Assembly: GCA_027482185.1 (NCBI GenBank)
Contig: JAIXWF010000013.1
Location: 372,001-436,000, forward strand
Source of the DNA: Opitutaceae bacterium
GTDB taxonomy: Bacteria > Verrucomicrobiota > Verrucomicrobiia > Opitutales > Opitutaceae
Length of the DNA stretch: 64,000 bases
Direction of reading: 5' to 3'
Of the stretch, positions 46,320 to 61,190 are shown piece by piece; within the stretch, counting starts at the first letter, position 1; each line of letters starts with the position of its first letter. The notes below the pieces were generated by a model. That model did no database searches, had not been told where the DNA came from, and saw only the letters and a program-made list of their open reading frames with translations. The position numbers and the translations under genes were made by a program.

Positions 46320-49226
46320 ATGGGCGCGAAGGCACGGGGCAACGTTCAAATCGGCTGGGCGGCGGGACTGCTGGCGGCGGCGGTCGGCTGGGCGCAGCCG
46401 GCGGGCCCCGCGGCGGCACCGTGGATCTGCGGTTGGGCCGAGACGCCGCCCGTGCTCGACGGTCGCGCCGATGACGCGGCTTGGCGCGGGGCGGCGGACT
46501 TGGGGACGTTCCGGCAGGCGTGGAAACCGGGCGAGCCGGCGGCCAAGGAAGGCACGCGCGTGAAACTGCGCTGGGACCGCGAGTACCTCTATTTCTTCGC
46601 GGCGATGGAGGACGCGGAGATCGCGGCGGATTCGCTGGAGCACGACGGGCCGCTGTGGCTGAACGACGTGATCGAACTCTTCCTGAAGCCGTCGGAGGCA
46701 CATCCGGGCTATTATGAGTTCGAGGTAAATCCGGGCGGGGCGGTGGTGGATGCGTTTTTTCCGAATCCGGAGGCGCGGCGGGATCGGGCGCAACTGCGAC
46801 GGGGGCGGTTCAATCTCGAGGCCAAGGTGGTGCTGGATGGAATCCTCAACGACCCCGGTGACCGCGACCGCGGGTGGACGGTGGAGGGACGGATCCCGTG
46901 GAGCGATTTCGCGGCCTGCGGGGGAAGGCCGGCGCCGGGCGAGACGTGGCGGGTGAATTTGGCGCGGGTAAACGGCAAGGGGGCGACGCAGGAACTTTCG
47001 AGCGCGGCGCCGCTGCGCGCGCCGAGTTTCCATCGGACGGAGGATTACGTGCCGCTGATTTTTGCGGGACCGGAAGCGCGGGAACGGCAGCCCTGGGCGG
47101 GCGGGGCGATCCAGGCGTCGGCGGAAACGGGGGCGGGATTTGCGACGGTGCCGGCGTGGCCGCGGTGGGCGGCGCAGGCGGCGGTGGCGCTGGCGCCGAG
47201 CCCGGACGGCGCGTGGCTCTGGTACGTCGAGCAGGACGGCGGCCGCGGCGGCGCGATGCGCGTCGGACGGATGCGCGCGGAAGGAGACGGCGCGGACGCG
47301 GAGGTGCTGCTGGAGACGGGCGAACAGGTGACGAGTTTGGTTTTTCATCCGCGTTTTGCGGCGCAGCCGTACGTCTACCTTGGAACCAACGGGCCGCAGG
47401 CGAAGCGGCCGCGGTTTTCGCGGCTGGTGCGCTACACGGTCCGGGATGGAAGGCCGGACGCGGCGACGCGGCTCGAAATTTTGAGTTGGCCCAGCGACGG
47501 CCACAACGGCGGCGGATTGGCGTTCGGGGCGGACGGGATGCTGTTTGTCACGAGCGGCGACGGGAGTTCGGAAGGGGACCGCGACCGCGTGGGGCAGGAT
47601 CCGGCGTCGTGGCGCGCGAAAATCCTGCGGATCGACGTGGACCGGCCGTCACCGGAAAAGCCCTACAGCGTGCCGGCGGACAATCCGTTCGTCGGAGACG
47701 CGCGGTTTTTGCCGGAGACGTGGGCGTACGGCTTGCGGAATCCGTGGCGGCTGACCTTCGACGCGGCGTCGGGGCAGCTGTGGTGCGGGGAGAACGGGCA
47801 GGACGCGTGGGAGTACGCGCACCTGGTGCGGCGCGGGGCGAATTACGGCTGGAGCGCGTTCGAAGGCAGCCATCGTTTCCATGCGGGCCGGGCCCTGGGG
47901 CCGACGCCGGTGACGCCGCCGACGGTAGAATTTCCGCATGCCGAATTCCGGTCTTTGACGGGTGGGATGGTTTACCGGGGGAAGGCGTTTCCCGAATTGG
48001 CGGGGGCGTATGTGTTCGGGGATTTCGCGACGGGGCGGATCTGGGCGGCGAAGCACGACGGGACGAAATTGGAATGGGTGAAGGAGTTGGCGGATACGCC
48101 GTTGGCGTTGACGCACGTGACGGCGGATGCGGCGGGGGAAATCATTTTGGCGGATTACGGCTTCGAGAAAGCGCGCGGCGGTCCGCGCGGCGGCGTGCAC
48201 CGGTTGGTGCGGGCGCCGGCGGCGGGCGGGAAGGCGTTGCCGTTTCCGGAACGGCTGAGCGAAACGGGATTGTTCGCGGCGACGGCGAAGGCGGTGCCGG
48301 CGGCGGGGGTGATCGCATATGCGGTTAACGCGCCGGGTTGGCATGACGGGGCGACGGGAGCGCACGTGTTGGCTTTGCCGGCGGGCGGCAAGGTGACGGT
48401 CGAAGGGCCGAAAGGCTGGACCGTGCCGGACGGGACGGTGTTGGCGCAGACGCTCGAACACGGCGGAAGGAAAATTGAAACGAGGGTATTGGTGAAACGG
48501 CAGGAGGACTGGAGCGGCTACACCTATGTCTGGGCGGAAGACCAGCGGGACGCGGTGCTGGCGCACAAGGGCGGGGCGGACTTGGCGTTGCCGAACGGGC
48601 AACCGTGGCGCGTGCCGAGCCGGGCGGAGTGCATGATGTGCCACACGCGTGAGGCGGGTTTTGCACTGACGTTGAACGAACTGCAGCTGAACCGCGGCGG
48701 GCAATTGGCCGAGTGGGAAGCGCGCGGAATACTCGCGGTCGATTTGCCGCGGTATGAACGCGCGCGGCGATTGCTCGACGGAGAGATGCGCGGCGGCGGC
48801 GGCGGCCGGGCGGCGCCGGGGCAACGGACGCCGCCGACGACCTCGCTCCTGCCGCGGGCGCCGGCGCAGCTGGGGCGGTACGCGGCAATCGGCGAGGCGA
48901 CGGCGAGTCTCGAGGTGCGGGCGCGCAGCTACCTCGCGGTCAACTGTGCGCCGTGCCATGTGCCGTCGGGCGGCGGCAACAGCGCGATGAATTTCGAATG
49001 GGGCGTATCGTCGGCGCGGATGCAGGCGCTCGACGCGGGGCCGATGCACGGCGAGCTGGGCTTGCCGGACGCGCGGGTGATCGCGCCGGGGGCGGCGGGG
49101 CGGAGCGTGCTGGTGCCGCGGGTGGCGATGCGGGGGCCGGGGCAGATGCCGCCGGTGGCGAGCCGGGTGGGGGATGCGGAAGCGCTGCGGGTGCTCGTGG
49201 CTTGGATCGAGGGGATGGGGCGCTGA
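46320..49226 (+). CDS. CBM9-like / PQQ-type sugar dehydrogenase / dihaem cytochrome c fusion
   Basis: 968 residues. Signal peptide about 1-25. Residues about 35-250 match the CBM9 domain of periplasmic sugar-binding or oxidase proteins (PVLDGRADDAAW, VKLRWDREYLYFFAAMED, DVIELFLKPSE). About 270-620 is a beta-propeller of the GSDH/sorbosone dehydrogenase kind (SDGHNGGGLAFGADGMLFVT, LPETWAYGLRNPWRL, NYGWSAFEG). About 640-968 carries two haem c sites, CMMCHT and CAPCH, in an SO2930-like tail. A sugar oxidation system delivering electrons to haem in one polypeptide is the reading from family knowledge; PQQ binding is not shown. Probably same operon as uxuA. Confidence 0.87.
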   Translation: MGAKARGNVQIGWAAGLLAAAVGWAQPAGPAAAPWICGWAETPPVLDGRADDAAWRGAADLGTFRQAWKPGEPAAKEGTRVKLRWDREYLYFFAAMEDAEIAADSLEHDGPLWLNDVIELFLKPSEAHPGYYEFEVNPGGAVVDAFFPNPEARRDRAQLRRGRFNLEAKVVLDGILNDPGDRDRGWTVEGRIPWSDFAACGGRPAPGETWRVNLARVNGKGATQELSSAAPLRAPSFHRTEDYVPLIFAGPEARERQPWAGGAIQASAETGAGFATVPAWPRWAAQAAVALAPSPDGAWLWYVEQDGGRGGAMRVGRMRAEGDGADAEVLLETGEQVTSLVFHPRFAAQPYVYLGTNGPQAKRPRFSRLVRYTVRDGRPDAATRLEILSWPSDGHNGGGLAFGADGMLFVTSGDGSSEGDRDRVGQDPASWRAKILRIDVDRPSPEKPYSVPADNPFVGDARFLPETWAYGLRNPWRLTFDAASGQLWCGENGQDAWEYAHLVRRGANYGWSAFEGSHRFHAGRALGPTPVTPPTVEFPHAEFRSLTGGMVYRGKAFPELAGAYVFGDFATGRIWAAKHDGTKLEWVKELADTPLALTHVTADAAGEIILADYGFEKARGGPRGGVHRLVRAPAAGGKALPFPERLSETGLFAATAKAVPAAGVIAYAVNAPGWHDGATGAHVLALPAGGKVTVEGPKGWTVPDGTVLAQTLEHGGRKIETRVLVKRQEDWSGYTYVWAEDQRDAVLAHKGGADLALPNGQPWRVPSRAECMMCHTREAGFALTLNELQLNRGGQLAEWEARGILAVDLPRYERARRLLDGEMRGGGGGRAAPGQRTPPTTSLLPRAPAQLGRYAAIGEATASLEVRARSYLAVNCAPCHVPSGGGNSAMNFEWGVSSARMQALDAGPMHGELGLPDARVIAPGAAGRSVLVPRVAMRGPGQMPPVASRVGDAEALRVLVAWIEGMGR

Positions 49227-49246
49227 AGGGGGGCGGCGATCCAGAA

Positions 49247-49325
49247 ATGGGACTGATGGGACTGATGGGACGGATGGGACCTATAGGACCTATGAGTCTT
49301 ATCAGTCCTATGGGTCCTATGGGGC
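49247..49325. repeat. 9-bp tandem array with orientation switch, between convergent genes
   Basis: GGGACTGAT, GGGACTGAT, GGGACGGAT, GGGACCTAT, AGGACCTAT and then inverted units CAGTCCTAT, GGGTCCTAT, GGGGCC. The two halves can pair as a long imperfect hairpin. The TAG stop of the sulfatase gene (49317-49319) is within it. Confidence 0.85.
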
Positions 49326-50864
49326 CTTCGGGGCCGCTTGCTTCTTCGAATTCTTCGGCGCGACGGGCGCCGGCACCAGGCGCCCCTCCTGGGCTTTGAG
49401 CCAGGTGTCGTAGGCTTTGGTGCGGGGGCCGACGTATGCGTAGGTGTCGAAGACGGCGGCTTGGCCGAGGGCGCGCGGGTCGCCGTCGTCGCGGAGGAGG
49501 GTGAGCATGCGCTGGCGCAGCTGGGCGAGGGTGTCGGCCAGGACGGGGTCGGCGGCGAGGTTGTTGTAGCCGGAGGGATCGCGGCGGAGGTCGTAGAGTT
49601 CCTCGGCGGGGCGTTTGCCGAAGGAGAGATCGTAGTAGTGGCCGCCGAGGAGCTTGAGGATTTCCTTGGTGGGGCCGGGGTCGCAGTTGCCGAAATCGGT
49701 CTCGGGGTTGCAGGCGGGCCAGCGGTCGGGGTGGAAGTTCCGCACGTAGAGAAACTCTGGCGTGCGCAGGGCGCGCACCGGGTAGCCGAGGTCCTGCGGG
49801 CGGCCGAGGTCGTGGCGTTCCTTGCCGACGAGCATCTCGCGGCGGTCCTCGACGTAACCGGAATTCGGAGACAGCAAGATCGGGCGGAGGCTGCGGCCGG
49901 TCATCTGCGGGTGGACGGGCTCGCCGGCGAGTTCGAGCCAGGTGGGGGCGAAGTCGCGGACGTTGACGAAATCGTCGACCGTGCGCCTGGGCTTGATGTG
50001 CCGGCCCCAGCGGATGGCGAGCGGGAGGCGGAAACCGTCCTCGTGGATCTGGCCTTTGACGTAGGGGAAGGGCATGCCGTGGTCGGAGGTGACGACGACG
50101 ACGGTGTTGTCCAATTGGCCGCGGGCCTCGAGGGCGGCGAGGGCGCGGCCGATGTGGGCGTCGGCCCATTCGACCTCGATCGCGTAGTCGGCGAGATCGC
50201 CGCGGACTCCGGGGGTGTCGGGCAGGTAACCCGGGACGGCGACGTCGGCGAGTTGCTTGCCGAGACGGACGCCGGAATTCAATTCGTAGGCGCGGTGGGG
50301 TTCCTGGAAACCCATCCAAAACGTGAACGGTTTCTGCGGGTCGCGTTGGTCGAGGAAGGCCTCGAAGTTTTTGGCGTAGTCGTTGCGGCCGATGCCGGAG
50401 GCGGGCGGGTTGCTGCGGTGGACGTCGAAGGAGGGGCCGGCGGGATTGCGGGTGCGGCCGGCGAGTTTCTGGAAATCGCCGGGGCCCCAGCCCTTGCCGG
50501 TGAGACCGACGCTGTAGCCGGCGCGTTCGAGGAGATCGGGGTAGACCTCGAAGCCGGCGGGGAAGTAGCCGTTGTGGGAAACGGCTTCGCGCAGTTGCCA
50601 TGTGTTGCGGCCGGTGAGGATGCTGGCGCGGCAGGGGCTGCACTTCGGGTTCGAAGTGAAGGCGTGCCGGAAGAGGATGCCTTCGCGGGCGACGCGGTCG
50701 AAGTTCGGCGTCTTGACCCAGGTCGAGCCGTAGGCGCCGGCGTGCTGCCAGCCCCAGTCGTCGAAGATGATGAAGAGGAAGTTGGGGCGCTCGGCGGGGG
50801 AGGCGGGCGCGGCGTGGGCGGAGGAATAGGCGAGGACGAGGGCTAAGAGGAGGAGGGGGCGCAT
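49317..50864 (-). CDS. sulfatase (arylsulfatase family)
   Basis: 515 residues, signal peptide about 1-18. PNFLFIIFDDWGWQHAGAYG supplies the metal-binding Asp pair, and NPKCSPCRASILTGRN the C-x-P-x-R motif whose Cys is converted to formylglycine; the fourth residue is Cys rather than the usual Ser. VVVVTSDHGMPFPYVKGQ gives Asp-His, and DLRRDPSGYNNLA the C-terminal subdomain. It resembles heparan-sulfamidase-like sulfatases by its PKCSP and GRNTWQ context. Verrucomicrobiota use such enzymes on sulfated glycans. Anaerobic or aerobic maturase not in the window. Confidence 0.93.
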   Translation of the reverse strand: MRPLLLLALVLAYSSAHAAPASPAERPNFLFIIFDDWGWQHAGAYGSTWVKTPNFDRVAREGILFRHAFTSNPKCSPCRASILTGRNTWQLREAVSHNGYFPAGFEVYPDLLERAGYSVGLTGKGWGPGDFQKLAGRTRNPAGPSFDVHRSNPPASGIGRNDYAKNFEAFLDQRDPQKPFTFWMGFQEPHRAYELNSGVRLGKQLADVAVPGYLPDTPGVRGDLADYAIEVEWADAHIGRALAALEARGQLDNTVVVVTSDHGMPFPYVKGQIHEDGFRLPLAIRWGRHIKPRRTVDDFVNVRDFAPTWLELAGEPVHPQMTGRSLRPILLSPNSGYVEDRREMLVGKERHDLGRPQDLGYPVRALRTPEFLYVRNFHPDRWPACNPETDFGNCDPGPTKEILKLLGGHYYDLSFGKRPAEELYDLRRDPSGYNNLAADPVLADTLAQLRQRMLTLLRDDGDPRALGQAAVFDTYAYVGPRTKAYDTWLKAQEGRLVPAPVAPKNSKKQAAPKAP

Positions 50865-50882
50865 GGGGTGGTGCGGGGGCGG

Positions 50883-50914
50883 ATCGGGATGGGACCGATG
50901 GGACGGATAGATGG
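50883..50914. repeat. short 9-bp tandem array
   Basis: GGATGGGACCGATGGGACGG with ATAGATGG following; same 9-mer family as at 49247 and 55095. Lies in the 74-bp spacer before the sulfatase start. Confidence 0.7.
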
Positions 50915-50938
50915 TCGTGGGCGGGCGGGCGGGCGCGG

Positions 50939-51601
50939 TCAGCGCATGGATTTGTCGAGGTTGCGGCGCATGGTGCGGAGCTCGTCGAGTTGCTTCTGGA
51001 GCATCGCTTTTTCCTCTTTGGTTTTGGCGTGGGCGATGGCCTCGATGAGGTCCTTCTCGGCTTCCATGAGCTCGACGCGCTCGCTGGCGACGTTGCGGCG
51101 GTATTGGGCGGAATCGCCGCCGAAGATCGCGAGGGGCTTGGCGAGCTTGCTGTCGTTGAGGGCGAGGTCGGTTTCGGAGACCTGGAGGTTTTTCTTTTCG
51201 CGGGCGATGTCCTGTTCCTGCAGGGCGAGCTTTTGGTCGAGGACCGTGATGCGGCCCTTCTTCACCTCCATCTTCGGGAGGACGGTGGCGGTTTCTTTGG
51301 CGGCGGGATTCTTGGCGGCGGTCTTGGCGGGGACGGGAACGGGCGCGGCAGGGGCGGCGGGCTGGGCCGCGGCCGGTTCGTTGGCGGGGGCGGAAATTGC
51401 CGGAACGGAATTCGGGGCGGGGGCGGCGGGCGTGGACGTCGCGGAGTTCGCGGCGGGGGCGGGGCGGCGGGCGGGGATCTTTTTGGCGTCCTCGGCGGCG
51501 CGGGCGCGGAGGGCTTCGCGGGCGCTTGGTTTCGGCGTTTCCTCCTCTTGGGCGAAGAGCGGCAAGGCGAGGGCGAGAAGGAGCAGCGCGCGGGCGAACA
51601 T
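50939..51601 (-). CDS. secreted coiled-coil protein of unknown function
   Basis: 220 residues. Signal peptide about 1-18 (LLLALALPLFAQ), a long Ala/Pro-rich low-complexity region (about 20-105) and a charged helical region (about 110-220: VLDQKLALQEQDIAREKKNL, RVELMEAEKDLIEAIAHAKT) typical of a coiled coil. No domain recognised. May be a periplasmic structural or scaffolding protein. It is separated from eno by the eno terminator. Confidence 0.75.
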   Translation of the reverse strand: MFARALLLLALALPLFAQEEETPKPSAREALRARAAEDAKKIPARRPAPAANSATSTPAAPAPNSVPAISAPANEPAAAQPAAPAAPVPVPAKTAAKNPAAKETATVLPKMEVKKGRITVLDQKLALQEQDIAREKKNLQVSETDLALNDSKLAKPLAIFGGDSAQYRRNVASERVELMEAEKDLIEAIAHAKTKEEKAMLQKQLDELRTMRRNLDKSMR

Positions 51602-51640
51602 GGCAGGGAGACCGTGCGGACCTTTGCCGGTTTCGGCAAA

Positions 51641-51668
51641 AGAAAAGGCCGGGCGTTGCCGCCCGGCC
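51641..51668 (-). terminator. intrinsic terminator of eno
   Basis: Minus strand GGCCGGGCG-GCAA-CGCCCGGCC, a perfect 9-bp hairpin with GNRA loop, followed by TTTTCTTTT. It begins 42 nt after the eno stop. Confidence 0.9.
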
Positions 51669-51710
51669 CGAGATTGGAAATTCGGAAATCGGAATTTCCG
51701 GAGGAGCCGA

Positions 51711-54129
<2,419 letters not shown>

Positions 54130-54251
54130 GACGGCCGGAGGAGGGAAACGGGCTGCTCCGGGCGGGGCAAACCAAACGATTGGGTAATTGCACGCGGTCG
54201 GCGGGAATTCGGTTTGCCAATGCCGGAGGCGAAAAACAGTGTGCGCGAACC

Positions 54252-54683
54252 ATGAGTGCGCCCGACGCCAAGCCGACCGTGCCCGAGGCACCCAAGAAAG
54301 ACGCCGTGCTGCTGGTCGACGACGAGAAGCCGCTGCTGGACGTTTATGTGTCGGCGCTGGGGCCGTACTTCGATCTGACGACGGCGTCGAACGCGCGCGA
54401 GGCCGACTTCATCCTGCAGAAGAAGACGTTCAAGGTCGTGGTGGCGGACCACCTGATGCCGGGCGGCAACGGGATGAATTTCCTGGTGCGGGCGCGGGAG
54501 GATTTCCCGCACATGCAGCGGATATTGGTCACCGGCTACATGAAGCCGGAGATGCTGCTGCGCAGCGTGAACGAGGCGGCGCTGTTCCGCTATTTGCTGA
54601 AGCCGGTCTCGATGGGCGAATTGCTGAAGGTCGTGATGGACGCGGCGAAAGCGCACGACGCAAGCGTGGCGTCCGCCGACTGA
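54252..54683 (+). CDS. receiver-only response regulator
   Basis: 143 residues. VLLVDDEKPLLDVYVSAL (acidic pair), VVVADHLMPGGNGMNFLV with the phospho-accepting Asp, ILVTGYMKPE (Thr) and LLKPVSMGELLKVV (Lys) complete a CheY-like receiver. No output domain: it probably acts through protein interaction or as a phosphorelay shuttle. The stop overlaps the start of a second receiver gene. Confidence 0.92.
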   Translation: MSAPDAKPTVPEAPKKDAVLLVDDEKPLLDVYVSALGPYFDLTTASNAREADFILQKKTFKVVVADHLMPGGNGMNFLVRAREDFPHMQRILVTGYMKPEMLLRSVNEAALFRYLLKPVSMGELLKVVMDAAKAHDASVASAD

Positions 54684-55066
54684 TGCCTGCGCCGGCGATA
54701 CCGCCGCGGCCGGTCGTGCTGCTGGTCGACGACGAGGCGGAGTTCGCCCGCGCGCTCGGGCTCAATCTCGCGGCGCATTTCGACGTCGATTACGCGGGGT
54801 CGGCGGCGGAGGCGGAGATGATGCTGGGGACGCGCGCGTACGACGTGATCGTCTGCGACCATTTGATGCCGGGGGAGGAAGGCCTGCCGTTTCTGACGCG
54901 GGTGCGGCGGCATTTCCCGCAGGTGCAACGTATCCTGCTCACCGGATACATGAACCCGGAATTGATTTCGCGCAGCACGACGGTGGCGGGCTTGGCCGGG
55001 TGTCTGATGAAGCCGATCCATGCGGCGGAGCTGGTGGATCTGATCCGGTTGGCGATGCCGCGGTAG
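54683..55066 (+). CDS. receiver-only response regulator
   Basis: 127 residues starting in TGATG with the previous stop. VLLVDDEAEFARALGLNLAA, DVIVCDHLMPGEEGLPFLTR, ILLTGYMNPE and LMKPIHAAELVDL give all receiver residues. It shares the DHLMPG site and TGYMxPE switch with its neighbour, so the pair arose by duplication. A hairpin and a 9-bp repeat array start at its stop codon. Confidence 0.92.
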   Translation: MPAPAIPPRPVVLLVDDEAEFARALGLNLAAHFDVDYAGSAAEAEMMLGTRAYDVIVCDHLMPGEEGLPFLTRVRRHFPQVQRILLTGYMNPELISRSTTVAGLAGCLMKPIHAAELVDLIRLAMPR

Positions 55067-55138
55067 CGCCGCGCGGGGCGCGGCGCGTGGAAGGGGATGG
55101 GACCTATAGGACTTATGGGACGGATGGGACGGATAGGC
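55066..55138. repeat. hairpin plus 9-bp tandem array after the second receiver gene
   Basis: Perfect hairpin GCGCCGCGC-GGG-GCGCGGCGC (55066-55074 and 55078-55086) then GGATGGGACCTATAGGACTT, ATGGGACGGATGGGACGG. Same hairpin-plus-array design as the 7-bp elements. Confidence 0.8.
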
Positions 55139-55182
55139 GTGCGGGCGCGGGGTCGACCGCGGCGGATCGGGGCTGATCCGGC

Positions 55183-55209
55183 TTTTGGCTTCCGGCTTTC
55201 AATTCTCAA
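55183..55209. repeat. degenerate heptad array at the uvrA 3' end
   Basis: TTTTGGCTTCCGGCTTTCAA then TTCTCAA; touches the uvrA stop. Weak copy. Confidence 0.5.
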
Positions 55210-58200
55210 CCGGCGGCGCGGCGCGCGGTCTTGAGTTTGGCGCGGAGGTAGGGGGCGGTGGGGCTGCCTTTGGTTTTGAGGAGGCCGGGGAGCGGGCCCT
55301 GGTAGAGGAGTTCGCCGCCGGCGGGGCCGCCGACGGGGCCGAGTTCGACGATGTAGTCGGCCTCGGCGAGCAGATCGAGGTGGTGCTCGATCACGACGAC
55401 GGTGTGGCCCTGGTCGACGAGGGAGTGGAGGACGCGGATGAGTTTTTCGCAGTCGCTGAGGTGGAGGCCGATGGTCGGTTCCTCGAGGAGGTAGAGGTTG
55501 CGCGGGAGTTCGCCGCGGCTGCGTTCGCGGTAGGTGGCGAGACCGGCGGACAACTCGGTGACGAGCTTGAGGCGCTGGGCCTCGCCGCCGCTGAGCGTGG
55601 GGGAGCTTTGGCCGAGCGTGAGGTAGCCGAGGCCGCAGTCGACCATGAGCCGGCAGACCTGCGAGAGCTGCGAATGGAAATCGAAGAACGTCGCCGCTTC
55701 CTCGAACGTGAGCTGCAGGACCTGGCCGATGTTCTTTCCCTTCCACGTGAGATCGGCGAGGTCGGGGCTGTAGCGCGAGCCGCGGCAATCGTCGCAGGGG
55801 AGGTAGGTGTTCGGCATGAACGCCATTTCCAATTTGATCCGGCCGCCGCCCTCGCAGGCCGGGCAGCGTCCGCCGGCGGTGTTGAAAGAAAAGCGCGAGG
55901 CGGTGAAGCCGCGGATCTTGGCGTCGGGGAGCGAGGCGAAGAATTGGCGGATGAGATCGAAGATGCCGAGGTAGGTCGCGGGGGTGGAGCGGGGCGTCTT
56001 GCCGATGGGGGATTGGTCGACCTCGATGACACCTTTGAAGATCTGCGCGCCGCGCAGCTCTGCAAAGGGGAGTTGAGCGCCGAGAGTTGAGCGTTGAGAG
56101 ATGAACTCGTCCGCGGCGAAGCCGGTGGCTTTGACGAAGTCGCGGCCGGTGAGTTTCGCCTTCTTGATTTTGATGGCGTGGGTGACGGCGGGATGGAGCA
56201 GGTCGCGGAAGAGCGTGGATTTGCCGGCGCCGCTGGGGCCGGCGACCATAATCAGGCGGCCGAGCGGGAGGCGGAGGTCGAAGCCCTTGAGGTTGCGGAA
56301 ATTTGCGGCGCGCAGGTCGAGCCAGGCGCCGGCGGCGTTCGCGGCGGGCAACGGGCGGTACTCGCCGCGCAGCGGGTGGGCGATGCCCTTGGCGAGGAAG
56401 AGACCGGTGAGGGAACGGTCGCTGGCCTTGATTTCCGCGGGCGTGCCTTCGGCGAGCAGTTCGCCGCCGTGGATGCCGGCGGCGGGCCCGAGGTCGATGA
56501 TGCGATCGGCGCGATCCATGAGCTCGTCGTCGTGCTCGACGACGAGGAGGGTGTTTCCTTTGTCGCGCAGCGCCTCGAGAGTCTCGATGAGGCGGTCGTT
56601 GTCGCGGGCGTGGAGGCCGATGCTCGGTTCGTCGAGGACGTAGAGCACGCCGGAGAGATTGGAGCCGAGCTGGGCGGCGAGGCGGATGCGTTGGGCTTCG
56701 CCGCCGGAGAGCGTCTCGGTGGGCCGGTCGAGGGCGAGGTAGCCGAGGCCGACGTGGTCGAGGAACTTGAGGCGTTCCTCGATCTGCGGGACGATGTCCT
56801 GCACGACAAGTTGGCCGCGGGCGTCGAGGTCGAGGGCGCGCAGGTGGGCGAGGAGTTGCGCCGGCACGGATTGCAGCAGGCCGGGCAACGAGAGCGGCGC
56901 CTGCTTGGTGCGGAAATGCAATTTTACCGCGCGGCCGATGCGGTTGAGGCGGGCGCCGTGGCATTCGGGGCAGGGTTGGCCGTCCTCGGCGACATCGTCG
57001 GCCGAATCGACGCCGAATTCGCGGAGGCGGGCGGCGGGGTCGTCTTCGTTTTCCTCGTCGGGCTCGAGCATCCACGGGAAGACGCGGCCGTGGCCGCGGC
57101 AGGTGGGGCACCAGCCGCGGGGCGAGTTGAAGGAAAAGTTCTTCGGATCGAGTTCGGGAAACGACTCGCCGGTCTCGATGTCGGTGCGCGTGGTCGAGAA
57201 CCAGGAAAGGATCTCGCCGGTGGGCGTGAGCAGAAAACAGGCGCCGTGGCCGAGGCGGAGGGCGAGGGTGAGCGGATCGGTCTGGGGTTTTGGGTTTTGG
57301 GTTTTGGGTTTCGGGTCCTTCAGCTTGGAGCTTTCGGCTTTGGGCCCTTTGAGATCCGCGACGACGACCTCGATGTCGTGCTCTTTGTAGCGGTCGAGTT
57401 TCTGGAAGGCGTCGACGCGCGTGAGGCGGCCGTCGATGCGCATGAGCTCGTAGCCCTGGTTCTCGATCCAGGTGGCGATGGGCTGGTGGTGGCCCTTGCG
57501 GCCGCGGATGAGCGGGGCGCAGAGGTACAGGTGTTTCGCTTTTTTCGCCTTCGGGTTTTCGGCGAGGACGCGGGCGAGCAGGGCCTTGAGGGCGCCGGGC
57601 GAGAGCGGTTTCACAGGTTTGTCCGTGTCCGGGTGGTGCTGGACGCCGAGGCGCGCGTAGAGCAGGCGGAGGTACTGCGCGACCTCGGTGATGGTCGCGA
57701 CGGTGGACTTGCGGGAGCCGCGCGTGACGCGTTGCTCGATCGCAACCGTGGGCGGGATGCCGGTGAGGCGGTCGACGGCGGGGCGAGGGAGCTGTTCCAC
57801 GAATTGCCGCGCGTAGGGCGACATCGATTCCATGAAACGCCGCTGGCCCTCGGCGAAGACGATGTCGAAGGCGAGGGTCGACTTGCCGGAACCGGAAACG
57901 CCGGTGACGACGTTCAATTGCCGGTGCGGGATCGAGAGGCTGAGATTCTTGAGGTTGTTTTCGCGGGCGCCTTCGATGCGGAGCATCGAGGGTTCGGAGT
58001 TCCGGACGAGGGGTTCGGAGTTTGGGGTTTGGCGTTTGGAGTTGGCGGCGCGGGGGGAGGTTTTGGGTTTTGAGTTTTGGGTTTTGGGTTGGGGGTCGTA
58101 GAAGCCGGGGTCTTCGGCGGCCAACAATTCGCGATCCGCGATCCGCGATCCGCGATCCTGAAGGGCTTCGCGGAGGAAGGGAGAGGTGGCGGTGTCGGTG

Positions 58201-61190
58201 GCGGCGACCTCCTCGGGGGTGCCGGCGGCGACGATCTTGCCGCCGTCGGCGCCGGCGTCGGGGCCGACCTCGATGAGCCAGTCGGCGGATTTGAGGACGT
58301 CGAGGTTGTGCTCGATGATGACGACGCTGTGGCCCGCGGCGACGAGGGCCTGCAACACGGAGAGCAGGCGCTTGACGTCGTGACGGTGGAGGCCGGTGGT
58401 CGGTTCATCCAACAGGAGCAGGGCTCCTGTTGGATGAACCGGGAGTTCGGAGTTTGGAGTTTGGAGTTTGGAGTTACGGATATTGGCCGGAGCGGATTTT
58501 GGTTTCCCTTCCGGCAACTCCGAACCCCGAACTCCGAACTCCGAACTTTCCCCGGCGCCTGCGGCGCCGAAGGCGGACAAATAGCGGACGAGTTTGAGGC
58601 GTTGGGATTCGCCGCCGCTGAGCGTGTTGAGCGGTTGGCCGAGGGTGAGGTAGCCGAGGCCGACGGATTCGAGGGCGGCGAGGCGTTGCTGGATCTTGGG
58701 GAATTCGGCGAAGAGGGCGGCGGCGTCGCTCACGCTCGTCGCGAGGAGATCGGAGACGGAGCGGCCCTGCCACTTGATCGCGAGGACTTCGGGTTTGAAG
58801 CGGCGGCTTTCGCAGACGGGGCAAGGGACGAAGACATCCGAGAGGAACTGCATCTCGACGCGCTCGTAGCCGAGGCCCTGGCAATGGTCGCAACGGCCGT
58901 CGCCGCTGTTGAACGAAAAACTCGAGGAATTGAAACCGGCCTCCTGGGCCTCGGGCGTGCGCGCGTAGAGTTCGCGGATCTCGTCCCAGGCCTCGGTGTA
59001 GAGCGCGGGATTGGAGCGCGGCGTGCGCGAAAGCGGCGATTGGTCGACGAGCACGATCTCGCTGAAATCGAGATCGCTCGCGATGCCGGCGAAGGTAGCG
59101 GCGTCCTCGGTGATCTGCAGGCGCTGCGTCATCAGGCCCTGGTAGATCACGTGGTTGAGGAGCGTGGACTTGCCGGAACCGGAGACGCCGCTGAGGCAGA
59201 CGAGGCGTTGCAGCGGAATCCGGAAGGAGAGGTGCGCGATGTTGTGTTTGGAGACATCGGTGAACGTGAGCCATGGGCCGTCCTGCACGGGGCGGCGCAA
59301 CTCGGGGACGCCGATCGAGCGGCGGCCGGAGAGGTAGGCGCCGGTGAGGCTGGCGGGAGAGGCGAGCAGCGCGGGCACGTCGCCCTGGAACACGATGTGG
59401 CCGCCGCGGCTGCCGGGCTCGGGGCCGACCTCGATGACGTGGTCGGCGGCGCGGATCATGGCTTCGTCGTGTTCGACGACGACGACCGTGTTGCCGGCGT
59501 CGGTGAGCCGGCGGACAATGGCGATGAGGCGGTCGATGTCGCGCGGGTGGAGGCCGACGCTGGGTTCGTCGAGGATGAAGAGCGTATCGACCAAAGACGT
59601 ACCGAGGCAGCCGGTGAGGTTGACGCGCTCGACCTCGCCGCCGGAAAGCGTGCGCGAGGAACGGTCGAGGGTGAGATAGCCGAGACCGACCTGCTGCAGG
59701 TAGCGCAGGCGCGTGAGCATCGATTCGTAGGCGAGCGTCGCGGAGCGGGCGTCGGGGGCGTCGGCGCGGAGTTCGTGGGCGGACGTGAGCTCGGCGACGA
59801 GTTGCGAAACCGGCAATTGGTAGAGCTCGGGCAAGGTGCGGCCGCGCCATTTCCAGCAGAGGGCCTCGGGCTGGAGGCGTTGGCCGCCGCAGTCGGGGCA
59901 GGGATTGTAGGCGCGGTAGCGGGAGAGGAAGACCCGCACGTGCATCTTGTAGGTGTTCTTCTCCAGCCAGCGGAAGAAACCTTTCAGGCCGTACCAATAC
60001 TGCGGCCAGGTCTTGCCGTTCTCCTCGCCGTAGCCGGGTTCGCCGTCGATGACGAAGCGCTGTTGCTCCGGCGGCAACGAGGCGAACGGCACGTGCGTCG
60101 GGACCTTCTTCTTTTTGGCGAAGGCGAGGAGGTCGTTTTTCGAATCCCCGTAGACTTCGCTTTCCCAGCACTTGATGACGCCGGCGTCGATCGAGAGGGA
60201 CTGGTCGGGAACCGCGAGCCGGTAGTCGATCTCGATGATGCGGCCGAAGCCGCGGCAGCGCGGGCAGGCGCCGAGCGGCGAGTTGAAGGAAAACAGCGCG
60301 GGCGTCGCGGGCCGGAACGTGCGGCCGGTCTTCGGCGAATGCAGGCCGCGGGAATAGTGGCCGAGTTCGCTGAAGTGCGGAGTTCGGGGTTCGGGGTTCG
60401 GAGTCGAGGAAGCGGCGGCGGCGGATTCGCCGAAGAGGCGGACTTCGCCTTGGCCGAAGTGGAGGGAGGTCTCGATGGCCTCGAGGCCGCGGGCGCGGTG
60501 CTCGGCGGCGAGGACGACGCGGTCCTGCGCGACGAAGAGCGTGTCGGTTTTCGCGAGGGGCGCGGGAGCGGCGAGCAGGTCGTCGATGCGGTGGACGTGG
60601 AGCACGTCGGCGGCAGCGGGCACGAGGCCGCGGACGTAGGACTGGCCCTTCAAATTCCCGAGGATCTCGGGCCAGGTGAGGTTGGCGGGTTTCGCGATCT
60701 TGAAGGCGACGACGGCGGTGCGGCCGGGGTGGGCGGCCAGGGCCTTCGTCCAGATCGAAGCGGGGGTGTCGTCGTCCACGCGTTCGCCGGTGGCGGGGTC
60801 GTAGCAGGCGGCGACGTGGCTGAACCAGACTTTGGCGAAGTCGGTGAGCTCCGTCATCGTGCCGACGGTGGAGCGCGAGGTTTTGACGGTGTTGGTTTGC
60901 TCGATGGCAATCGAGGGGCGGATGTTCTCGATCGAGTCGACCTTGGGTTTGTCGAGGAGTTCGAGGAATTGGCGCGTGTAGGCGCTGAAGGTCTCGACGT
61001 AGCGGCGCTGGCCCTCGGCGTGGAGCGTGTCGAAAACGAGCGACGATTTGCCCGCGCCGCTCAGGCCGGTGACGACGATGAAGCGGCCGAGCGGCACATC
61101 GAGATCGAACCCCTTGAGGTTGTTTTGGCGGACGCCGCGGAGGCGGATGCAGTCGGTCGAGGAAGCGGACACGTTGGGCGAAGAACTCAC
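55206..61190 (-). CDS. uvrA: double-length excinuclease ABC subunit A
   Basis: 1994 residues, two UvrA units in tandem (about 10-1000 and 1070-1994). Four ATPase sites: GLSGAGKSS (42-50), GVSGSGKST (near 665), GVSGSGKST (near 1093), GPSGAGKST (near 1650), each with LSGGE (TLSGGEVERVNL, TLSGGESQRLKL, TLSGGEAQRIRL, TLSGGEAQRLKL) and LDEP/EEP Walker B. Zinc knuckles such as CPRCRGFG and CDHCQGLGY are kept. It scans DNA for bulky lesions with UvrB. Chlamydial UvrA is also double-length, near 1786 residues; this one is longer partly because of five in-frame 7-bp repeat insertions. No frameshift is seen. Confidence 0.95.
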   Translation of the reverse strand: MSSSPNVSASSTDCIRLRGVRQNNLKGFDLDVPLGRFIVVTGLSGAGKSSLVFDTLHAEGQRRYVETFSAYTRQFLELLDKPKVDSIENIRPSIAIEQTNTVKTSRSTVGTMTELTDFAKVWFSHVAACYDPATGERVDDDTPASIWTKALAAHPGRTAVVAFKIAKPANLTWPEILGNLKGQSYVRGLVPAAADVLHVHRIDDLLAAPAPLAKTDTLFVAQDRVVLAAEHRARGLEAIETSLHFGQGEVRLFGESAAAASSTPNPEPRTPHFSELGHYSRGLHSPKTGRTFRPATPALFSFNSPLGACPRCRGFGRIIEIDYRLAVPDQSLSIDAGVIKCWESEVYGDSKNDLLAFAKKKKVPTHVPFASLPPEQQRFVIDGEPGYGEENGKTWPQYWYGLKGFFRWLEKNTYKMHVRVFLSRYRAYNPCPDCGGQRLQPEALCWKWRGRTLPELYQLPVSQLVAELTSAHELRADAPDARSATLAYESMLTRLRYLQQVGLGYLTLDRSSRTLSGGEVERVNLTGCLGTSLVDTLFILDEPSVGLHPRDIDRLIAIVRRLTDAGNTVVVVEHDEAMIRAADHVIEVGPEPGSRGGHIVFQGDVPALLASPASLTGAYLSGRRSIGVPELRRPVQDGPWLTFTDVSKHNIAHLSFRIPLQRLVCLSGVSGSGKSTLLNHVIYQGLMTQRLQITEDAATFAGIASDLDFSEIVLVDQSPLSRTPRSNPALYTEAWDEIRELYARTPEAQEAGFNSSSFSFNSGDGRCDHCQGLGYERVEMQFLSDVFVPCPVCESRRFKPEVLAIKWQGRSVSDLLATSVSDAAALFAEFPKIQQRLAALESVGLGYLTLGQPLNTLSGGESQRLKLVRYLSAFGAAGAGESSEFGVRGSELPEGKPKSAPANIRNSKLQTPNSELPVHPTGALLLLDEPTTGLHRHDVKRLLSVLQALVAAGHSVVIIEHNLDVLKSADWLIEVGPDAGADGGKIVAAGTPEEVAATDTATSPFLREALQDRGSRIADRELLAAEDPGFYDPQPKTQNSKPKTSPRAANSKRQTPNSEPLVRNSEPSMLRIEGARENNLKNLSLSIPHRQLNVVTGVSGSGKSTLAFDIVFAEGQRRFMESMSPYARQFVEQLPRPAVDRLTGIPPTVAIEQRVTRGSRKSTVATITEVAQYLRLLYARLGVQHHPDTDKPVKPLSPGALKALLARVLAENPKAKKAKHLYLCAPLIRGRKGHHQPIATWIENQGYELMRIDGRLTRVDAFQKLDRYKEHDIEVVVADLKGPKAESSKLKDPKPKTQNPKPQTDPLTLALRLGHGACFLLTPTGEILSWFSTTRTDIETGESFPELDPKNFSFNSPRGWCPTCRGHGRVFPWMLEPDEENEDDPAARLREFGVDSADDVAEDGQPCPECHGARLNRIGRAVKLHFRTKQAPLSLPGLLQSVPAQLLAHLRALDLDARGQLVVQDIVPQIEERLKFLDHVGLGYLALDRPTETLSGGEAQRIRLAAQLGSNLSGVLYVLDEPSIGLHARDNDRLIETLEALRDKGNTLLVVEHDDELMDRADRIIDLGPAAGIHGGELLAEGTPAEIKASDRSLTGLFLAKGIAHPLRGEYRPLPAANAAGAWLDLRAANFRNLKGFDLRLPLGRLIMVAGPSGAGKSTLFRDLLHPAVTHAIKIKKAKLTGRDFVKATGFAADEFISQRSTLGAQLPFAELRGAQIFKGVIEVDQSPIGKTPRSTPATYLGIFDLIRQFFASLPDAKIRGFTASRFSFNTAGGRCPACEGGGRIKLEMAFMPNTYLPCDDCRGSRYSPDLADLTWKGKNIGQVLQLTFEEAATFFDFHSQLSQVCRLMVDCGLGYLTLGQSSPTLSGGEAQRLKLVTELSAGLATYRERSRGELPRNLYLLEEPTIGLHLSDCEKLIRVLHSLVDQGHTVVVIEHHLDLLAEADYIVELGPVGGPAGGELLYQGPLPGLLKTKGSPTAPYLRAKLKTARRAAG
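56068..56104. repeat. heptad array inside uvrA (residues about 1696-1708)
   Basis: GGGGAGTTGAGCGCCGAGAG then TTGAGCGTTGAGAGATG; encodes FISQRSTLGAQLP between the fourth ATP site and the DQSPIGKTPRS block. Confidence 0.75.
57283..57345. repeat. heptad array inside uvrA (residues about 1282-1303)
   Basis: TTTTGGG units (GGTTTTGGGTTTTGGGTTTT), then TCAGCTTGGAGCTTTCGGCT. Translates to KDPKPKTQNPKPQT and neighbours on the minus strand. Confidence 0.85.
57973..58160. repeat. heptad element in the linker between the two UvrA halves
   Basis: Hairpin TCGATGC-GGA-GCATCGA (57973-57979 and 57983-57989), then TTCGGAG/TTTGGGG/TTTTGGG units and a block of four CGCGATC units (58131-58158). Encodes the low-complexity linker about residues 1010-1069. 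Confidence 0.85.
58401..58569. repeat. complete hairpin-bordered heptad element inside uvrA
   Basis: Left hairpin with 19-bp arms (58401-58419 and 58423-58441, loop AGG), forward TTTGGAG array (58442-58475), core of about 40 bp, reverse CTCCGAA array (58515-58547), right hairpin CGGCGCC-TGC-GGCGCCG (58553-58569). One arm of the left hairpin is the Walker B coding sequence of uvrA; the other is its inverted copy. Confidence 0.9.
60376..60411. repeat. heptad array inside uvrA (residues about 261-272)
   Basis: GTGCGGAGTTCGGGGTTCGG with GGTTCGGAGTC following; encodes STPNPEPRTPH. Confidence 0.8.

Follow-up and report, generated by a model that had tools for sequence, protein, structure and literature searches.

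Tandem 9-bp palindromic boxes dispersed in an Opitutaceae genome: candidate sites for a dimeric DNA-binding protein

Three 9-bp repeat arrays in the window

The window analysed is a stretch of 64,000 nt (G000:C3:372001-436000) from the genome of an Opitutaceae bacterium (6.43 Mb in 24 contigs; here G000). The array under study is situated between two convergent genes. The upstream gene (46320-49226, + strand) codes for a product with CBM9-like and glucose/sorbosone dehydrogenase domains, and the downstream gene (49317-50864, - strand) codes for a sulfatase; a first-pass annotation had named these neighbors a cytochrome fusion and a sulfatase, and the cytochrome c match of the upstream product is weak and below its cut-off. 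The array itself (49249-49327, without assigned strand) contains eight recognizable 9-mers and a decayed ninth, and reads in nines from 49249 as GGGACTGAT GGGACTGAT GGGACGGAT GGGACCTAT AGGACCTAT GAGTCTTAT CAGTCCTAT GGGTCCTAT GGGGCCTTC. Units 1 to 5 (49249-49293, + strand; GGGACTGAT twice, GGGACGGAT, GGGACCTAT and AGGACCTAT) are in the GAC state, and units 6 to 8 (49294-49320, - strand), which hold the predicted stop codon of the sulfatase gene (49317-49319), are in the GTC state with the 9-bp frame kept. Read in nines, the switch near 49294 is therefore in phase.

Two further arrays lie, like the first, where the first-pass annotation had placed them. The array at 50891-50908 (+ strand) has two units, is flanked by two predicted - strand genes and has a four-unit ortholog in genome G006; that at 55099-55134 (+ strand), 3′ of a response-regulator gene, has four units, as does its G006 ortholog, with other letters at the variable (nn) positions. 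Allowing one mismatch, GGGACNNATGGGAC matched the window eight times, as compared with a mean of 0.51 and a maximum of 3 in 100 shuffles, and GGGACNNATNGGACNNAT matched the 6.4 Mb genome 57 times, with no match for the reversed pattern, which confirms a genuine, genome-wide 9-bp family with inverted units.

A long imperfect hairpin had also been proposed at 49247. The predicted fold of 49227-49345 agrees with it on the + strand (-64.3 kcal/mol, z -7.0) and less so on the - strand (-36.4, z -3.3). Likewise, the GGG-loop hairpin reported before 55095 is present, as a perfect 9-bp GC stem at 55066-55086 (+ strand) directly after the upstream gene's stop codon, and we read it as a gene-end hairpin, but the fold predicted for the entire surrounding region, 55060-55150, is no more stable than expected (z -0.94; 29/200 shuffles equal or better). 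The window also contains a 99-bp imperfect tandem repeat of ca. 7 copies within a predicted gene (53266-53963).

The apparent switch of orientation occurs within one palindromic frame

The units of the window's family fit a single skeleton, ATnnGWCnn. This is a palindrome of 9 bp whose center may be A or T, and GAC-type and GTC-type units occupy one common 9-bp frame. Among the loci sampled, this frame was continuous through 32 of the 35 switches that were at most 28 bases apart (G000, 18/20; G006, 8/9; G030, 6/6), and one more G000 switch, at a distance of 29-60, was out of phase. Against a chance of 1/9 this yields a naive binomial p of ~1e-27, in which the switches are not independent, since several can share one array, and units sharing an AT are in phase by construction. 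The switch is thus not the meeting point of two opposed arrays, as had been supposed, because the frame runs through it unbroken. Arrays lacking a switch, which the first-pass annotation had named as evidence against its reading, are common: 23 of the 39 elements sampled in the source genome have none.

Scanning with nnGWCnnAT for arrays of at least three units, at loci chosen for their GGGAC hits, recovered 43 arrays in G000, 32 in G006 and 15 in G030, and none with the letters reversed. Positions 3, 5, 8 and 9 were G, C, A and T in 93-100 % of cases, values inflated by the use of the same positions for finding the arrays. Most arrays have 3-8 boxes, four being the commonest size in G000 (13/43), G006 (16/32) and G030 (13/15), but not in G022 (3/15). 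Mixed arrays tended to contain one switch only (G000, 8/15, with 1.7 expected by shuffling; G006, 7/11, 2.2 expected; G022, 5/7, 2.7 expected); in G030, 12 of the 13 mixed arrays passed from GTC to GAC with one switch (5.7 expected), and its four-unit GTC-to-GAC arrays are palindromic elements of ca. 38 bp.

In other phyla, where its distribution is patchy, the family mostly has arms of the asymmetric form GGGACnnAT, often as inverted pairs around a loop, and switches at most 28 bases apart were in phase in 10/29 cases, which is above 1/9 but not locked, so that the palindromic description is firm solely for the window's family. Likewise, the nn letters are not free in every genome, since those of G402 are nearly fixed, being GT in 26 of 29 units.

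Orientation of the units follows local GC skew

Where the local skew was at least 0.1, GGAC lay on the G-rich strand in 59 of 59 one-orientation elements, and the mixed elements gave 17 concordant cases, three discordant and two ties; at low-skew places eight of nine elements were mixed. At low-skew places of G000 and G006, units with a central A had a G before the core in 88 % of cases, and units with a central T had a C after the core in 75 % and 93 % and a G before it in 62 % and 43 %, respectively. At strongly skewed places, a G before the core was common with either center (77-95 %). Between tandem genes, the G-rich strand was antisense in 25 of 28 one-orientation elements.

KOPS motifs are the familiar example of a polar orientation signal. 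We make no such claim for the 9-mers because strand composition alone favors, and could by itself yield, the concordance with skew, and the one-strand GGGAC appearance would rather come from strand-biased mutation of the free letters. This suggests that a repeat can look oriented merely because mutation is biased by strand at a site that is itself symmetric. As a separate observation, contig G030:C1 (L210-L229), with dnaA at position 31, had negative GC skew in 8/9 samples below 2 Mb and positive skew in 9/11 above, the opposite of the usual leading-strand rule.

The arrays are mainly intergenic

Gene context was assigned with a home-made gene caller, which placed 74 of 90 elements outside its predicted genes. 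The comparison set consisted of 282 gaps of at least 40 bp from these loci, counting those that bear arrays. Convergent gaps were enriched (24/74 elements vs 51/282 gaps, p 0.01), divergent gaps were depleted (6/74 vs 53/282, p 0.03) and gaps between tandem genes held 44 of the 74 elements. The placement between convergent genes that had been noted at this one locus is therefore somewhat enriched among the elements examined.

Distribution and lineage-specific outer letters

A two-unit GGGAC pattern was found in 11 of 57 genomes (own included), being abundant only in G000 and G006 (57 matches each) and G030 (14). The three-unit pattern occurred in 24 of 387 genomes of the phylum (own included), from 20 of 197 genera, with a reversed control of 0; in a few genomes, G326, G365 and G373 among them, all listed three-unit hits come from one long homogeneous array. 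Among named genomes, at least 118 stretches contain the GGGAC pattern, 80 of them listed by title; part of these stretches are long minisatellites, and the matches listed include Planctomycetota, Acidobacteriota, Hydrogenedentota, Lentisphaeria, Akkermansiaceae, Chlamydiae, Bacteroidota and others. Very long GGGACnnAT-like arrays were seen in L062, L108 and L137 (among them one Hydrogenedentota and one Akkermansiaceae record), and GGGACGTAT-type arrays in the record of Oligosphaera ethanolica DSM 24202 (L104).

A palindrome-only pattern matched 13 of the 57 genomes (own included), with a reversed control of 0. Genome G022, from the same genus, had no match to the GGGAC pattern, yet 32 of its windows contained the palindrome-only pattern. 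Its 15 arrays, from 14 of 15 places fetched, have the consensus CnGWCnGAT, with outer letters C..G, and one G003 array resembles this type; the outer letters are R..Y in G000, G006 and G030. Lineages within one genus therefore share the skeleton and differ in the outer letters.

Arrays keep their place and core letters between orthologs

We compared G000 with G006, which are 82-93 % identical in long matches around the arrays. Of 27 matched array pairs we used 24, leaving out three L155 pairs with doubtful partners, and in these 24 the arrays keep their place. With G006 letters aligned to G000 units, core positions 2, 3, 5, 8 and 9 differed in 31/570 cases, vs 638/4460 in the flanks (p ~1e-10), the nn letters differed in 26 %, and double nn changes numbered 17, with 7.6 expected. 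In the swapped direction the values were 30/575 for the core, 617/4391 for the flanks, 27 % for the nn letters and 17 double changes, with 8.3 expected. These rates indicate a conserved core beside nn letters that are replaced more quickly than their surroundings, partly as whole units, although core conservation could come from homogenization between units rather than from selection. Unit number differed in 16 of the 24 pairs. A partner was missing for 12 G000 and 10 G006 elements, a count confined to the loci compared and not evidence of absence. In L166 (1663-4037), G000 has an extra ca. 2.4 kb that ends at a 9-mer array and is missing from the matching G006 stretch, with no clear junction.

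Heptamer arrays share places with the 9-mers but differ in symmetry

The first-pass annotation had suggested one mechanism for 7- and 9-bp units, which is not supported by their symmetry or, largely, by their abundances. The heptamer units (GnTGAAR) are non-palindromic, and their inverted arms stand apart, paired around a spacer. One heptamer pattern, with 122 matches in G000 (reversed control 8) and present in 11 of 57 genomes, was largely uncoupled from the 9-mer pattern (71 vs 0 matches in G013, 21 vs 0 in G012, 36 vs 2 in G010 and 0 vs 14 in G030); G030, which lacks that pattern, holds other heptamers. In favor of the suggestion, the two kinds of array sometimes adjoin and share a place: by eye, a heptamer array lies directly 5′ of a 9-mer array at several G000 and G006 loci (L155, L166, L169 twice and L186). 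Also by eye, heptamers follow GC hairpins at gene ends; as these hairpins come after stop codons both before heptamers and before 55095, the GC hairpin may mark the gene end and not the repeat.

Two other observations concern the heptamers. In G013 (L270-L274), inspection by eye identified an element of ca. 150 bp with heptamer arms and a similar interior at five of eight heptamer places, some of them close after stop codons. In the window, a predicted protein of 1,988 aa with UvrA domains, probably a double UvrA, is encoded at 55206-61172, and heptamer arrays of the GGGTTTT, GGAGTTT and CGCGATC types are found inside this predicted coding region, at 56072-60401.

Candidate function and alternative explanations

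The locus belongs to a family of palindromic boxes, AT-nn-GWC-nn-AT, that stand in tandem with a 9-bp period and are dispersed over the chromosome. The explanation that we favor, with slightly less than even confidence, is that the arrays are boxes bound by a candidate dimeric, array-forming DNA-binding protein. Each box would be the site for one dimer of this putative protein, adjacent dimers would bind neighboring boxes cooperatively, whichever way the boxes face, in the manner of Omega on the 7-bp repeats of parS, and binding would take place at many chromosomal sites, as with the nucleoid protein CdbA. The symmetric arrays, their phase continuity, the conservation of the core in place, the lineage-specific outer letters, the frequent four-unit size and the depletion in divergent gaps support this model. 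The variation in array length in 16/24 ortholog pairs, the different commonest size in G022, the asymmetric and loosely phased arms of other phyla and the nearly fixed nn letters of G402 count against it, as does the possible homogenization of the core. Judging from sequence, the way in which some letters are fixed and others free speaks for recognition of the individual box, and the strongest hint that the reader would differ in specificity from lineage to lineage comes from the differing outer letters within one genus. From this evidence we infer a protein reader, its dimeric state and a role in the chromosome rather than in the control of individual genes. A more specific version is possible but doubtful, in which the outer letters reflect each lineage's own chromosome-organizing protein and the arrays are the dispersed chromosomal counterpart of plasmid parS arrays. 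No cognate protein was found among the two families looked for, Y1 transposase and CsrA; target arrays for CsrA were discarded because only three of 11 array-bearing genomes tested had CsrA, with no match in the other eight.

The arrays could instead be the arms of small non-autonomous palindromic elements of the REP or MITE kind, moved by a transposase and later decayed, which we consider unlikely. Inverted pairs of arrays within 150 bp of each other are in fact frequent (65 among all the loci examined, from several phyla), and inspection by eye revealed several G269 copies in which arms of ca. four units flank a similar GC loop, several G240 arrays (L230-L238) of ca. three 9-mer units followed by a GTGGTGACTACGTCACC-like hairpin, and the ca. 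150-bp element common to five of the eight G013 heptamer places. However, the flanks of G000 and G006 arrays show no conservation beyond AT before and A after the array, and the 24 usable ortholog pairs remain in place. Additionally, Y1 transposase, the only transposase type looked for, occurs in 25 of 25 genomes tested, with arrays or without, so that the RAYT/Y1 association that characterizes REP/BIME elements is not apparent. No clean empty site was seen among the few looked for: 26 of 27 genomes of the genus (own included) match the queried sulfatase region, but in the 10 relatives whose loci were viewed by eye the neighbors differ, precluding a clean comparison at that locus, and the search at L154 gave no aligned intergenic stretch.

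It is also improbable that these are neutral minisatellites, with functionless 9-bp arrays made and kept by polymerase slippage and template switching. This would agree with the fast turnover of unit number and nn letters between orthologs, with the excess of double nn changes, with the prediction of visible orientation from GC skew and with the long homogeneous arrays that make up some of the named-genome matches; slippage is indeed proposed for similar repeats in the consulted part of PMC4692102. Nevertheless, the same positions are fixed and the same free in distant genomes, with a reversed control of zero, the core changes less than the flanks, and slippage by itself does not explain why the frame is palindromic.

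A constraint to form G-quadruplexes, as proposed for the GGGNATC heptamers of Xanthomonas and Nostoc, appears highly unlikely, in spite of several traits that recur in the text consulted of PMC4692102, namely the four-unit preference (in three genomes), the G-rich strand, the depletion in divergent gaps and the variation of length in place. With the motif defined as at least four G3 tracts with loops of at most 7, only a minority of arrays contain it: 12/49, 10/40 and 0/18 arrays of at least four units in G000, G006 and G030, and 1/5, 1/12, 3/8 and 1/3 arrays in G240, G269, G362 and G402, respectively. Besides, the first G is loose (R), and C5, A8 and T9 are kept though a quadruplex needs none of them. 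We thus rejected quadruplex formation as the common constraint.

Most improbable of all is a bidirectional transcription terminator acting as an RNA hairpin between convergent genes. The stable + strand fold predicted for 49227-49345 and the enrichment of convergent gaps (24/74 vs 51/282) are in its favor, as is a small terminator-like site at 49323-49335 (+ strand), which overlaps the decayed last unit, has a T-containing tail that passes the T criterion and was the single site found on scanning this locus, as compared with 0.2 in shuffles. Yet this site is a separate five-pair stem and not the array hairpin, with none on the - strand, and 44 of 74 elements sit between tandem genes. The variable letters of paired arms matched in 77/193 cases vs 73.0 ± 2.6 in shuffles, with 101 of 1000 shuffles as high, and two other arm registers gave 105 and 31 of 1000, so that compensating changes in a paired-arm RNA are marginal at most and the terminator is weak as a general reading. 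Rfam searches at the gathering score gave no match in 18 loci, and 48800-55600 had three weak hits, none at an array.

Comparison with known repeat families and box-binding proteins

STRRs are short intergenic tandem repeats, and REP/BIME sequences comprise a conserved palindrome with a tag. The 9-mers have the traits of an intergenic tandem-repeat family, with short units in dozens of dispersed, mainly intergenic copies that are patchy among relatives, but with a period of nine and not of seven as in heptanucleotide families. They share with REP/BIME palindromes the dispersed extragenic inverted structures, and differ from them in the tandem 9-bp period and in the lack of a conserved flank in G000 and G006.

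Our limited search of the literature yielded no paper on the 9-bp family, and it is conceivable, though on balance we doubt it, that tandem 9-bp palindromic chromosomal marks form a class not described in the literature searched. The closest published family that we found is that of the GGGNATC or GGGGA(C/T)T heptamers of Xanthomonas and Nostoc (Rehm et al., 2015; PMC4692102). In the portion of that article consulted, these are likewise dispersed, mostly non-coding, with a G-rich strand, a preference for four units and under-representation in divergent gaps; relatives carry them between the same genes, with variation in length and letters, and inverted repeats are mentioned. The 9-mers differ in the length of the unit, 9 bp instead of 7, in the palindromic in-phase skeleton of the window's family and in that the G-run is not the conserved part. 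The TAACTGA heptamers of Beggiatoaceae (MacGregor, 2015; PMC4679880), according to the sections consulted, are also dispersed short direct repeats, patchy across phyla, for which a nucleic-acid-binding protein has been proposed as the reader; they differ in unit, period and symmetry, and most are found just before start codons in the orange Guaymas genome, in contrast to the depletion of the 9-mers in divergent gaps.

Many bacteria have short repeats between their genes. Here, the letter pattern, the palindromic frame and outer letters that differ by lineage together predict a protein that reads 9-bp boxes. If such a box-reading dimeric protein exists, it would point to a hitherto unrecognized system for nucleoid organization or segregation in bacteria that have received little study. 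Tandem box arrays are a known target of ribbon-helix-helix-type proteins, such as Omega and MetJ, and the 9-mers, like such targets, are short boxes that adjoin one another in direct or inverted order. The same likeness extends to the parS arrays of Omega/ParB-pSM, where, in the passages seen of PMC9499535, each 7-bp repeat is the site of one Omega dimer, and binding by two dimers is strong whether the repeats are direct or inverted. Those arrays, however, form a plasmid centromere of six sites with a non-palindromic 7-bp box, whereas here there are dozens of chromosomal sites and a 9-bp palindromic box. In this respect the dozens of 9-mer arrays over one chromosome resemble the targets of CdbA, a ribbon-helix-helix protein described, in the part consulted of PMC7156744, as binding over 500 chromosomal sites with minor effects on transcription.
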